From positions 62,001-126,000 of the forward strand of contig JAAFKA010000012.1 of NCBI GenBank assembly GCA_013299115.1: a stretch of DNA of 64,000 nucleotides. Direction: 5' to 3'. Made by a program: the position numbers and the translations under genes. The DNA comes from Cytophagales bacterium. GTDB lineage: Bacteria; Bacteroidota; Bacteroidia; Cytophagales; Thermoflexibacteraceae. Shown piece by piece: positions 26,492 to 64,000 of this stretch; the stretch's first letter is position 1, and every line of letters starts with the position of its first letter. A model generated the notes under the pieces. That model worked only from the letters and a program-made list of their open reading frames with translations. It was not told the origin of the DNA and did not search any database.

Positions 26492-26565
26492 AATGTTAAA
26501 GTTGTTAAAAAATAGTTAAGGCAGGTTAAAAAATGTTAAAAAATGAAAGTTCTTTTCGAATGTAG

Positions 26566-26665
26566 CATACGCTTTAGCGTGTGAGAGGTGCTTTCGGTGT
26601 GTAACATACGCTTTAGCGTGTGAGTTGTACTTTCGGTGTGTAACATACGCTTTAGCGTGTGCTTT
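26566..26665. repeat. Tandem repeat of CATACGCTTTAGCGTGTG, 39-bp period, 2.6 units
   Basis: Units begin at 26566, 26605 and 26644. Each has the palindrome CATACGCTTTAGCGTGTG followed by a conserved CTTTCGGTGTGTAA. The last unit runs into a CTTTCGGTTGGCAGT..CAAAACCAAAAG repeat related to 10889-10932. A single inverted copy of the palindrome lies at 56305-56322. Confidence 0.85.
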
Positions 26666-59255: not shown

Positions 59256-60638
59256 CTAATAACTTTTTGCCCACAGGGTTCTATATTGGTAAAACAACCT
59301 TTCCAATAATCGCAATTCCTCTGTAATAATTTCGGCTGTACCCTGCATTTGAGGTTTAAATTCCAAAGTTTTGTGGTAGTTGGTAGTCAAACCATTGGTA
59401 AGTTGCAAGGTAACAGCCAATTTGTCGGCTTTGGGCAAGGGTGAAATAGCTGTTACTTTTGCTCGCAAAATTCCAAATCTTTCGTAAGGGTAAGCTGCCA
59501 ATTTGATAAGCACTTGTTGCCCTGTTTGTACTTTGGCTGCATATTGGCTACCCAATTCTAAACGGCATAAAATGCCTTTTCCTTCTTGTTTACTTTCTTG
59601 CTGTTTATTCTCAAAAGGCAAAATAGCAAGCACTTCTTCGCCTGTTTTTACTTCTTGATTAATGTTCCAAAATTGATTGAAACTTACACGACCAGCAATA
59701 GGTGAAATGAGCAAATATTTTTGTTCCCACGCCAATAATTGACTTTGTAATTCAGCCTTTGTGCGTTGAATTTGCTGTTCATATTGCGTAGTCTGTTCTT
59801 GTTCTTTGAGTTGCAAATCTATAATCTGTTGTTGTAATTCGGCTATTCGCAGTGCCGAATTGATTTGTGCAGCTTGTGCCTGTACCACTATATTTTTGCG
59901 TTGAATTAAATTACTTTTTGCTTGTTCCATTTCTCGCAAAGCCACTGCCCCTTGTTTTTTCAATAAACTATCTGCTTCAAACTGTCGTTTATAAAGTTGC
60001 AAATCCTCTTTTTGTAGCCCTGCTTGTTCTCCTTGATTACGGGCTAATTGTTTTTGAAATACAATTTGTTGTTGCAAAGACTTGATTTTCAAGGCATTGT
60101 AATTCAACTCTTTAAAAATTTCATAATCTTTCAATGCTTTGCAATAATTTTCGTAAGGTGTTTGGAGTTCACCAAGCAACAGCCCCACCCCAGCCCTCCC
60201 CAAAGGGGAGGGAGTTTTTGACGTTATTTTGTCAAATCGGAGTGCCGAATCAGCCCCCTTTGGGGGTTGGGGGGCTATTTGGGAGATTTGTCTTATTTCT
60301 TTTACTTGTTCATAATCTGCTGTATTTTCTAAAACTGCCACCACTTGCCCAGCTTTTAGGCTGTCGTTTGGTTTGACAAAGAGGTGTTGAATTTTGCCAC
60401 TGCTGCGGGCAACTAAACTTACAGGAGGAAAATAGGTGGTAAACGTAACTTGGCTACTCACCACTTCGGGGTAAGGGACAAACCAACTGCCTATAAAAAA
60501 AAGCAATAAAACACAAAATATTACACCAATACCAGACCGCAAAAGCCAAGCAGGAGGTTTGCCCAGCAAATCGTGGACTTCTTCGGAATGAGGAAAATTA
60601 TGTAATGTGGACTGCGTATTTTCAGGAGTTTGTGGCAT
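59256..60638 (-). CDS. HlyD family secretion adaptor
   Basis: This periplasmic adaptor for a peptide-exporting ABC transporter has 460 residues. An N-terminal cytoplasmic tail and one membrane helix (about 34-54, GVIFCVLLLFFIGSWF) are followed by a biotinyl-lipoyl-like half (SGKIQHLFVKPNDSLKAGQVVAVLE). A long coiled coil (about 165-290) follows, then the second lipoyl half (LLISPIAGRVSFNQFW) and a beta-barrel domain. Codons for about 32 residues between the lipoyl half and the coiled coil (PQPPKGAD..TPSPLGRAGVG) derive from an inserted repeat at 60181-60276. It sits in a same-strand series with VapBC and the LanB dehydratase, suggesting export of a modified peptide. Confidence 0.87.
   Translation of the reverse strand: MPQTPENTQSTLHNFPHSEEVHDLLGKPPAWLLRSGIGVIFCVLLLFFIGSWFVPYPEVVSSQVTFTTYFPPVSLVARSSGKIQHLFVKPNDSLKAGQVVAVLENTADYEQVKEIRQISQIAPQPPKGADSALRFDKITSKTPSPLGRAGVGLLLGELQTPYENYCKALKDYEIFKELNYNALKIKSLQQQIVFQKQLARNQGEQAGLQKEDLQLYKRQFEADSLLKKQGAVALREMEQAKSNLIQRKNIVVQAQAAQINSALRIAELQQQIIDLQLKEQEQTTQYEQQIQRTKAELQSQLLAWEQKYLLISPIAGRVSFNQFWNINQEVKTGEEVLAILPFENKQQESKQEGKGILCRLELGSQYAAKVQTGQQVLIKLAAYPYERFGILRAKVTAISPLPKADKLAVTLQLTNGLTTNYHKTLEFKPQMQGTAEIITEELRLLERLFYQYRTLWAKSY
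60181..60276. repeat. In-frame AGCCCC..GGGGCT repeat inside the hlyD-like gene
   Basis: The 96-base unit (32 codons) has ends AGCCCCACCCCAGCCC and GGGGGTTGGGGGGCT. It contains two palindromes: CCCTCCCCAAAGGGGAGGG and AGCCCCCTTTGGGGG. The family relates to the free copy at 8056-8125. Its length keeps the reading frame, and the encoded Pro/Gly-rich text is unlike HlyD proteins. Confidence 0.85.
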
Positions 60639-61399: not shown

Positions 61400-64000
61400 T
61401 TATTTTCTCCTCGCCATTTCCGAAGTATAAAACTGCACCAAAAAATCATAAATCACCAATTCGTGAAGGCGTTGTTTTGACCGCAAAAAACGGTTGAGAA
61501 ACATATGGACATAGCTTGCCAACAAATCAGGTAAAGCTACGCCCAACTTGTTTTGTTTATCTAAACTCAAAATTTGGACAACAACAGGCTGAAAATTTTG
61601 GTGGCGTTGCTCAAAAGTCTGCCAAATTATTGCTAATTCGTCTGTGTGGTGGAGAGTTTTGGAGAGCAAGGCTGTAATATTTTTTCGTTCTGCTCTAAAT
61701 TTATCACTTAGCATTTTCTTACTTTCTTTGCTCCGCACCCCAAATTCTGCGTAAAAATTGCTTTGGAGTTTAGTCATCAACTCTTTTTTAGCTGCCAAAT
61801 CCAAACCAAAACTATTGAGCAAATCGTCTGTGCCATACAAAGCCAACTGCCAGCGAAGTTGGTCGCCGCTGTCGTCTGTTGCCAAGTGCGACAAAATGGT
61901 GGTGGTGGCTATACTATCGTAGCAAAACAAAGTTTCGGAGTTTTCCATATTTGCAGCCCCATATCTTTCTATTTCACGTTTGTAGGTATCGGTTTGCAGC
62001 GAAGTAATTAGATTGGCTGCTAAATAAGGTTGCAATAAATGATGTAAGTTTTGTAGCAAGTCTGCAAAATTTCCATCAGTTTGGTAAAACCTCAACCGCA
62101 AATGGTTTTGTGGGTCTGCATAGCGAATGAAAAACCATTTGTCTATTTTTTCTGTTGCCAACAAGTTTTCGGCAAAAGGCTTAATCACTTCGCACAAAAT
62201 TGTATCAGCCGTTTTTACGCCACAATAGATTTTGAGGTAAAGCCACGAAGAACCAATGGAGAAATGACGAGTAATATTTTCGGTATCTGTTGCTACACTT
62301 TCCAAGTCTTCAAGACTTGGAAAGTGTACAGATTTCGCATTTTCTTGCTTTGGCACATATTGCAAAGGAAAAATAAACTCATTGGTAAAATCTGTTTCTG
62401 TAGTGCGGGCTTCAGCCCGCACATTTGCACTATCAACCTCTGTATGTGATAAACGGACTGAAGTCCGTTCTACAGGAAATAGGTTTTCCACCAACAGCAA
62501 ATTTCTTTGTGGTTGCAGCCCATCTAACAGAATTTGCATAGCCATTTCATTTTCCGTATCTATTGGCAGTTCGTTATCTCCTTCGGCAAAAACGAGGTAG
62601 CGAGGCATTTTTTTATCGTGTAAGATAGCACGCAATAAAGCAATTTTTTCTTGCTCTTTTGCCTCCACAACAGGTTTCAACTCTGTTGTTTTTATAACCC
62701 ATCTTGCCCTTGATAAAATAATGGTTTGGTCTAAAACCACTCTGGGCAGGTAGTCTAAGTTGTCTAAAAAAGACCAACTCCAATGATAGCCTGTGATGTG
62801 GTTTTGGTATTGCAATTCGCATAAAAAATGATAGAAAGGCAAAGACCGCAGCCCAAAATTATGGGCAGAACTCAAACGAGGGATTACCTCTTTGTTCAGC
62901 TTTTTTGACCGCAAAAAAATACGATTGCCTTTGAGGGAAACGTACAAATCGGAAAGTAAAATGGTATGTGTTTCGTCTGTGTTTGCCTGCACCACGATTG
63001 GAATTTCATAGTCCCGCAACTGGGGTCGCATAGAAATATTGCCAATTCTGCCCTGATTGATATGCACTATTTCGGCAAACACCGCATCGGGATTGGCTGC
63101 TGCTTCTGCTGCCAATGCCTGCTGCACTGCTTGTGTTAAACCTTCGTCTAAATGGCAAAACCTACCCAACAGCGTGGCTGCCGAAGGTGCATTAACCCCT
63201 TTCAAATAAATTTGTTGGCTTTGGTCTGCTTGGTTTATCAGGCTGGCAAAGCAATACAAAGACGTGGGAGGTTGCTGTGCTTGCTGAATAGTAAGGGTTT
63301 GGAGGTCTTGGGAAGTTAGATGTAATATCGTATCGTTATTTTGCAAAAAATTGGTATATTTTGCCAATAAAAACTGTTGCCATGCCCGCCATTCGTAGCT
63401 ACGCACACTCGCAGCCCCACCACCACCCACGCCTATTCCGTCTAACAAAGGAGCATTGTCGGCTTGGTGGCTTTCCTTTGGCGGATAACCTATGCCTGTT
63501 TCATTGTCTAAAAGTTGGGCTAAAGAAACTTCTTCGGTTTCATAGCGTTGTTGCAACAATTCTTTGAATTTTTTTAAATTTTCGTGTTCTTGGTAAGGCA
63601 CCGTTGCCAACAACAAGCCGATGGAAGTAGCCAATTGCTCTGTCAATTCGGGGGCAAGGGCAAGGTTTCTCTCTTGCAGTGTGTCCACCTGAAACAACTG
63701 CCCTAACTCAAAATCAACGCCCAAAGTTTTTAGTTTTTCGGCTATGGCGTAATACTGTGGCGTGGCTGTCCCCAAAGGCTGCTGGTCTATGCTGTGTAAG
63801 GTTTGGCTGATTTCCTTAAAAAGTGGCTGAATGGGCAAGTCCTTTGCTAATAATCTTTCAAAATATTCCTGCCCCGTAATGTGTGCCTCCAACTCCGATA
63901 CCAACACTTGGGCATCTATCATTTCATTGATAAAAGCAAGGGCTTCCTCATGGCTTATCTCCTCGCCGACCAGCACCGCAGCCAATTCATCGGGCTTACT
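61400..64000 (-). CDS. LanB-type lantibiotic dehydratase (5' end outside the window)
   Basis: Class I lanthipeptide or thiopeptide dehydratases glutamylate and eliminate Ser/Thr to form dehydroamino acids. The frame runs off the right edge. Visible parts are the end of the N-terminal Lant_dehydr_N domain (IPRLSSAHNFGLRSLPFYHF and the typical LDQTIILSRARWVI) and the complete SpaB-like C-terminal elimination domain (WLYLKIYCGV, WFFIRYADPQNHLRLRFY, FYAEFGVRSKE). The visible protein is over 860 residues. Two palindromic insertions lie in frame (62294-62328 and 62398-62475). The partner precursor, cyclase and ABC transporter genes are presumably to the right of the window. Confidence 0.9.
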   Translation of the reverse strand, partial: SKPDELAAVLVGEEISHEEALAFINEMIDAQVLVSELEAHITGQEYFERLLAKDLPIQPLFKEISQTLHSIDQQPLGTATPQYYAIAEKLKTLGVDFELGQLFQVDTLQERNLALAPELTEQLATSIGLLLATVPYQEHENLKKFKELLQQRYETEEVSLAQLLDNETGIGYPPKESHQADNAPLLDGIGVGGGGAASVRSYEWRAWQQFLLAKYTNFLQNNDTILHLTSQDLQTLTIQQAQQPPTSLYCFASLINQADQSQQIYLKGVNAPSAATLLGRFCHLDEGLTQAVQQALAAEAAANPDAVFAEIVHINQGRIGNISMRPQLRDYEIPIVVQANTDETHTILLSDLYVSLKGNRIFLRSKKLNKEVIPRLSSAHNFGLRSLPFYHFLCELQYQNHITGYHWSWSFLDNLDYLPRVVLDQTIILSRARWVIKTTELKPVVEAKEQEKIALLRAILHDKKMPRYLVFAEGDNELPIDTENEMAMQILLDGLQPQRNLLLVENLFPVERTSVRLSHTEVDSANVRAEARTTETDFTNEFIFPLQYVPKQENAKSVHFPSLEDLESVATDTENITRHFSIGSSWLYLKIYCGVKTADTILCEVIKPFAENLLATEKIDKWFFIRYADPQNHLRLRFYQTDGNFADLLQNLHHLLQPYLAANLITSLQTDTYKREIERYGAANMENSETLFCYDSIATTTILSHLATDDSGDQLRWQLALYGTDDLLNSFGLDLAAKKELMTKLQSNFYAEFGVRSKESKKMLSDKFRAERKNITALLSKTLHHTDELAIIWQTFEQRHQNFQPVVVQILSLDKQNKLGVALPDLLASYVHMFLNRFLRSKQRLHELVIYDFLVQFYTSEMARRK
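62294..62328. repeat. Perfect 35-bp palindrome inside the lanB-like gene
   Basis: The arms TACACTTTCCAAGTCTT and AAGACTTGGAAAGTGTA are exact complements around a single C. The protein text there is SVHFPSLEDLESVA. It lies 70 bases from another palindromic insertion. Confidence 0.9.
62398..62475. repeat. 78-bp CTGTAG/CTACAG element in frame inside the lanB-like gene
   Basis: The left half CTGTAGTGCGGGCTTCAGCC carries the palindrome GTGCGGGCT/AGCCCGCAC. The right half ends AACGGACTGAAGTCCGTTCTACAG-like with the same ACGGACT palindrome and CTACAG end as the free element at 945-1009. At 78 bases it adds exactly 26 codons (VERTSVRLSHTEVDSANV and on) without breaking the frame. Confidence 0.9.

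Follow-up and report, generated by a model that had tools for sequence, protein, structure and literature searches.

An in-frame REPIN-like pair of GTAG repeat units in the LanB dehydratase linker of a Cytophagales bacterium

GTAG REP/REPIN–RAYT systems, as described in the sections of the survey of Di Nocera (2013; PMC3733652) used here, combine a GTAG foot, a short hairpin, a high copy number and the formation of inverted pairs. The repeats are mainly intergenic, the RAYT gene lies amid its own repeats and some genic copies are in frame. In several species GTAG REPs are found in genes both singly and as dimers encoding 20–30 amino acids. The same sections place GTAG families in Proteobacteria, Cyanobacteria, Chloroflexi and the PVC group; Bacteroidetes appear there for the CGTC type only. 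RAYTs belong to the HUH single-strand transposases and are akin to the TnpA of IS200/IS605, and the residues of Escherichia coli TnpA_REP that contact the GTAG guide are known (Quentin 2018; PMC6006769). In-frame REPs inside the RAYT genes themselves are also described, in a subclass often met in Bacteroidetes and Cyanobacteria (PMC6006769).

The repeats of the Cytophagales genome analysed here (G000) have all of the above traits of the GTAG systems. Compared with the GTAG REPs in those sections of PMC3733652, they differ in having several stem subfamilies with a common CTTYAG apex and in forming dimers of mixed subfamily, and they occur in a genome whose proteins point to Bacteroidota. Their genic copies resemble the subclass 2.4 tnpA_REP insertions (PMC6006769), which likewise leave the frame unbroken and fall in a variable part at the periphery of the protein; there, however, the host is the transposase itself, whereas here the units sit in LanB, a DnaE intein, a methylase and further proteins. 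As with the Rickettsia palindromic elements (Ogata 2002, cited in PMC3733652), palindromes are translated in unrelated proteins and tolerated. Of these elements, RPE-4 and RPE-6 are placed by the survey in the CGTC group, with many genic copies, while the units of G000 carry a GTAG tag and are depleted from genes, so that neither the CGTC-type tag nor the frequent genic location of the Rickettsia elements is seen.

Our main subject is a 78-nt segment within a LanB gene near the end of the window (the whole 64,000-nt stretch of DNA that was analysed). It very probably consists of two GTAG-tagged REP units in a REPIN-like inverted arrangement; this pair belongs to a RAYT-associated non-autonomous family, lies in the linker between the LanB domains and was presumably spread by a RAYT. 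An in-frame REP in LanB is a further example of a published phenomenon. Three points go slightly beyond the literature: a genic dimer of mixed subfamily, the presence of two clusters within a single gene, and units that are exchanged between species while the insert length stays constant. The case links palindromic inserts translated within a RiPP enzyme to a RAYT/REP system with testable components.

A GTAG repeat family with several stem subfamilies

The pattern TGTAGN6CTTYAG has 350 matches in G000 against three for the control. Elsewhere it is found 500 times in the sister species of the same genus (G001), 175 times in G002, 83 times in G047 and 41 times each in G003 and G044, while most other genomes are near background. 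A unit is 24 nt long and consists of CTGTAG or NTGTAG, the GTAG foot of REPs, followed by an 18-nt hairpin. Unit statistics were obtained from a 1.25-Mb sample of the genome, in which 95 units have at least five of the six variable stem pairs. Most prominent among their stem subfamilies are CATACG, AACGGA, TGTGGA, CATAGG, TGTGGG and TGCGGA, and all share the CTTYAG apex.

Neighbouring units at most 300 nt apart form 15 convergent (+−), two divergent (−+) and 14 tandem pairs. In all of the DNA examined there are 37 distinct +− dimers, the LanB pair and 36 others. Within the 1.25-Mb sample about 83% of the units are intergenic: called genes hold 16 of the 95 units where 79 are expected by chance (P = 4e-46), or seven of 64 when counted by cluster (P = 4e-37), an approximately fivefold depletion in which all numbers are approximate because genes were called by a simple open-frame rule. 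Foot, copy number with a mostly extragenic location, inverted pairing and a RAYT gene flanked by units are thus all found, as in the GTAG REP/REPIN class.

The window itself contains seven CGGACTNNAGTCCG-like hairpins, with 0.46 expected. Three intergenic units lie near its start:

891–914, + strand: intergenic REP unit, AACGGA subfamily
945–968, + strand: AACGGA-subfamily unit, left half of an intergenic homodimer
986–1009, − strand: right unit of the same homodimer, AACGGA subfamily

The 65-nt homodimer at 945–1009 is predicted to fold into one long hairpin (z = −14.5). At 26549–26665 of the window a 39-nt repeat also occurs three times in tandem; its CATACGCTTTAGCGTGTG hairpin represents a further subfamily of the GTAG units.

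The inverted pair in the LanB linker

The segment at 62398–62475 consists of two inverted 24-nt hairpin units separated by 30 nt, and CTGTAG and CTACAG are the outer ends of the pair. On the forward strand the order is CTGTAG-TGCGGGCTTCAGCCCGCA, 30 nt, AACGGACTGAAGTCCGTT-CTACAG. Each unit has a six-base foot bearing GTAG and then an 18-nt hairpin. The features of the gene are as follows:

61400–64000, − strand: LanB dehydratase, the host gene, 1074 aa, assigned by domain matches; it extends beyond the window end (whole gene L031:1401-4625)
62398–62421, + strand: REP unit A, CTGTAG-TGCGGGCTTCAGCCCGCA, TGCGGG subfamily; coding-strand peptide VRAEARTT
62422–62451, no strand: spacer between units A and B, 30 nt; peptide about LSHTEVDSAN
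62452–62475, − strand: REP unit B, CTGTAG-AACGGACTTCAGTCCGTT, AACGGA subfamily; peptide PVERTSVR
64234–64328 (window-equivalent, past the window end; C4:126235-126328, L031 4235-4329): second cluster, three in-frame REP units near the gene start; peptides CSIGFSLC, AQTKVYAT and VRAEARTT

The first-pass annotation had reported a palindromic CTGTAG/CTACAG element in frame in LanB, and both the element and the open frame are indeed present. It had also equated the element with the repeat at 945–1009. The two belong to the same family, but the LanB pair is a 78-nt heterodimer of the TGCGGG and AACGGA subfamilies, in contrast to the 65-nt AACGGA homodimer. As single-stranded DNA the LanB segment forms two separate hairpins (z = −5.3; none of 200 shuffles is as stable), and this independent folding of the units fits their membership in different stem subfamilies.

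Both LanB domains are found in the one protein (Lant_dehydr_N at residues 35–699, E = 4e-141; Lant_dehydr_C at 794–1066, E = 2e-70), which also matches the NisB structure 4wd9. The insert corresponds to residues 717–742 in the linker between the two domains, and the frame is kept. The conserved LanB stretches RCTPFGLF, FIRYADPQNHLRLR and EIERYG are all retained, so that nothing in the sequence suggests a dead gene. Linker length is variable among LanB homologues, and in alignments the homologues and the solved chains 9g04 and NisB are shorter near the insert. Together with the fact that four of the six frames of the 24-nt unit are open by inspection, this supports the annotation's view of an element that can be read through and is tolerated in a loop.

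An alignment of homologues had been proposed as a test, in which the same residues in other LanB proteins would speak against an insertion. The insert residues are absent from the LanB homologues and from the LanB of G001, and the latter is 56% or 63% identical to that of G000 in two alignments. It lacks all five REP units of the G000 gene, the two in the linker and the three near the start. The linker of G000 reads ENLF-PVERTSVRLSHTEVDSANVRAEARTTETD-FTNEF, with 29 residues, and that of G001 reads ENLF-DPTPSKQQTTLDV-FTNEF, with 13 residues. The figure of exactly 26 codons given by the annotation therefore holds for the length of the segment, while the net gain over G001 is 16 codons, equal to two eight-codon units. 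For the N-terminal cluster the net gain over G001 is 11 codons. No exact empty LanB site was found, as the closest relative is only about 56–66% identical in LanB.

A net gain of 16 and not 26 codons fits two readings: either the whole pair entered with the loss of about ten native codons, or the units entered singly around a native loop. We consider it possible, although somewhat unlikely, that the pair did not arrive as one 78-nt block but as two independent 24-nt insertions flanking ten native linker residues. Removal of two eight-codon units leaves a linker of 13 residues, as in G001 and several homologues; homologue linker length varies, however, and the exact match could be due to chance. 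Separate insertion also agrees with the spacers of most other pairs, which differ in sequence and length, and with a site in a DnaE intein where G000 has two units and G001 only a single one. On the other hand, the 15:2 convergent bias suggests that the pair is the unit of spread, and one other dimer (C24:29775) aligns with the LanB pair over its full length, spacer included, with E = 5.8e-8.

The spacer of this dimer is the one that the LanB spacer resembles (best P of 0.0066 among 36 comparisons). After correction there is no significant likeness between the LanB spacer and the spacers of the 36 other dimers. Spacer homology was consequently dropped as proof of whole-pair insertion, since a P of 0.0066 fails correction for 36 comparisons.

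Several further observations concern this region. The LanB of G001 is split over two contigs (L115 and L101), and one frame ends after FQVD in unrelated sequence; an insertion sequence may interrupt the gene there. In G000, LanB also contains in frame an unrelated 30-nt palindrome, CACTTTCCAAGTCTT-CAAGACTTGGAAAGTG (window 62296–62325; peptide HFPSLEDLES), of which the CTTTCCAAGTCTT arm has a handful of copies in the 1.25-Mb sample. The adjoining HlyD-like gene carries an in-frame insert with G+C-rich palindromes (APQPPKGADSALRFDKITSKTPSPLGRAGVG) at window 60181–60281, and this region is shorter in G001 and other homologues.

RAYT genes amid repeats of the same kind

When G000 was searched with PF01797, the only matches were other Y1 proteins, none with GTAG units nearby. 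The absence of a cognate RAYT that this seemed to indicate was overturned by a profile built from five unit-flanked proteins of relatives, which detects a 222-aa frame at C74:148388-149020 (E = 5e-65). Against NF047646 (REP_Tyr_transpos) this protein scores 70.3 bits (E = 1.5e-19), below the cut-off of 80, while its homologue in G002 scores 89.8 bits, above the cut-off. NHVH and WQ motifs are present. At the tyrosine motif G000 has YIVQNP, and the relatives have YIVQNP, YVVENP or YILENP. The motifs given for RAYT subclass 2.4, which occurs with canonical REPs, are NH[IFV]H, WQ and YIxNNP (PMC6006769).

The gene in C74 sits inside an array of TGTGG-subfamily units, and its stop codon is supplied by the downstream unit. 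A truncated relative is found at C10:99062 with CATACG units directly upstream. Both RAYT genes of G001 (C31 and C113) are flanked by AACGGA units, the subfamily also present in LanB and at 945–1009, and the gene in C113 has AACGGA dimers on each side. Whereas G001 has an intact RAYT gene bordered by AACGGA units, none was found in the G000 assembly. In G047 and G002, RAYT-like genes lie directly between or adjoin units of the same kind. Four genomes have more than 80 units, and each of them carries this RAYT type, compared with seven of the 55 other genomes searched (hypergeometric P of about 7e-4).

From these data the following course of events can be proposed. A RAYT (TnpA_REP, an HUH single-strand transposase) would recognize the GTAG foot and the hairpin and would spread units or pairs through the genome. 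Most insertions into genes would be lost, with selection removing those copies that break the frame or the fold. Since the unit is open in most of its frames, flexible loops can retain a minority of the insertions that fall in coding sequence: where a suitable length and an open frame coincide with a loop, the insertion may persist as a short added peptide such as VRAEARTT.

Other transposase genes are also accompanied by hairpins. A second RAYT-like gene (motifs NHFH and YIHQNP; L251, C11:38000-43000, and L035) has TTACCTATCGGGTGGCT hairpins on both sides. In the GGGTGGCT family three of five sample copies are in frame in genes and encode SGGSQPPD-like peptides. In L098 (2339-4390) an array of CCCTACGTTTCACGTAGGG-type hairpins brackets a Y1 transposase gene, the YIKNQETHH motif of which resembles subclass 1.2, listed without REPs (PMC6006769).

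Repeat units in other genes and the reading frame

A search for the element in other genes, also suggested by the annotation, shows that besides LanB five or six genes carry units in open frames:

L095: DnaE intein, in-frame units
C12:51901: N6-methylase, in-frame units
C12:192960: family 2 glycosyltransferase, in-frame unit or units; homologues are without the insert
C9:43515: TIR-domain protein, four tandem units 27 nt apart, in frame
L062: membrane protein, in-frame unit or units
C12:137722: sixth case, near the start of a 341-aa frame; it may precede the true start

Frame keeping at these sites is partly by construction, as they were found via open frames. For LanB it is independently supported by the conserved domains that continue on both sides.

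The annotation had further raised the idea of frame-compatible movement. That the element moves in a way, or is shaped, such that reading frames are preserved is very unlikely. The unit length of 24 nt and the four open frames would suit such a design, as would the spacing of tandem units, which in genes is always 27 nt compared with 25–54 nt in intergenic DNA (Fisher P = 0.03, with three of the five genic cases from one array). Inverted pairs, however, span 58 to 175 nt, and in only seven of the 36 pairs other than that in LanB is the length divisible by three. Together with the depletion of units from genes, these lengths fit plain purifying selection, and the preservation of frame is best explained by selection acting on the survivors. 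The last alternative, an ordinary variable loop of a LanB subfamily with coincidental palindromes, would draw on the varying linker length of the homologues but has a negligible probability and is refuted by copy number and absence from homologues, given that each half matches a 350-copy repeat almost exactly, that LanB holds three further units and that the segment has the folding z-score given above.

The least expected result is the turnover of units inside genes between the two species. The N6-methylases of G000 and G001 are 91% identical and have a 17-codon insert at a shared place made up of different units, with nearly identical flanking DNA (G000 C12:51901-51951; G001 L300). At the DnaE intein site (L095 in G000 and L301 in G001), G000 has two units and a spacer where G001 has one unit, a difference of 23 codons. 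The methylase site of equal length with different units and the intein site with one or two units suggest a reading, tentative and rather doubtful, in which genic REP sites act as length-constrained, exchangeable peptide cassettes where RAYT activity or repeat conversion swaps or adds units while the frame is kept. If this were true, the loop peptides should diverge much faster than the remaining protein. G000 and G001 form a pair of related species in which the make-up of genic REP sites varies although the reading frames of the proteins remain open, which makes the spread of REP units, single or paired, approachable by comparison of close strains. In addition, the sequence NISLRNV occurs twice in the DnaE intein, and both stretches match a different palindrome family.
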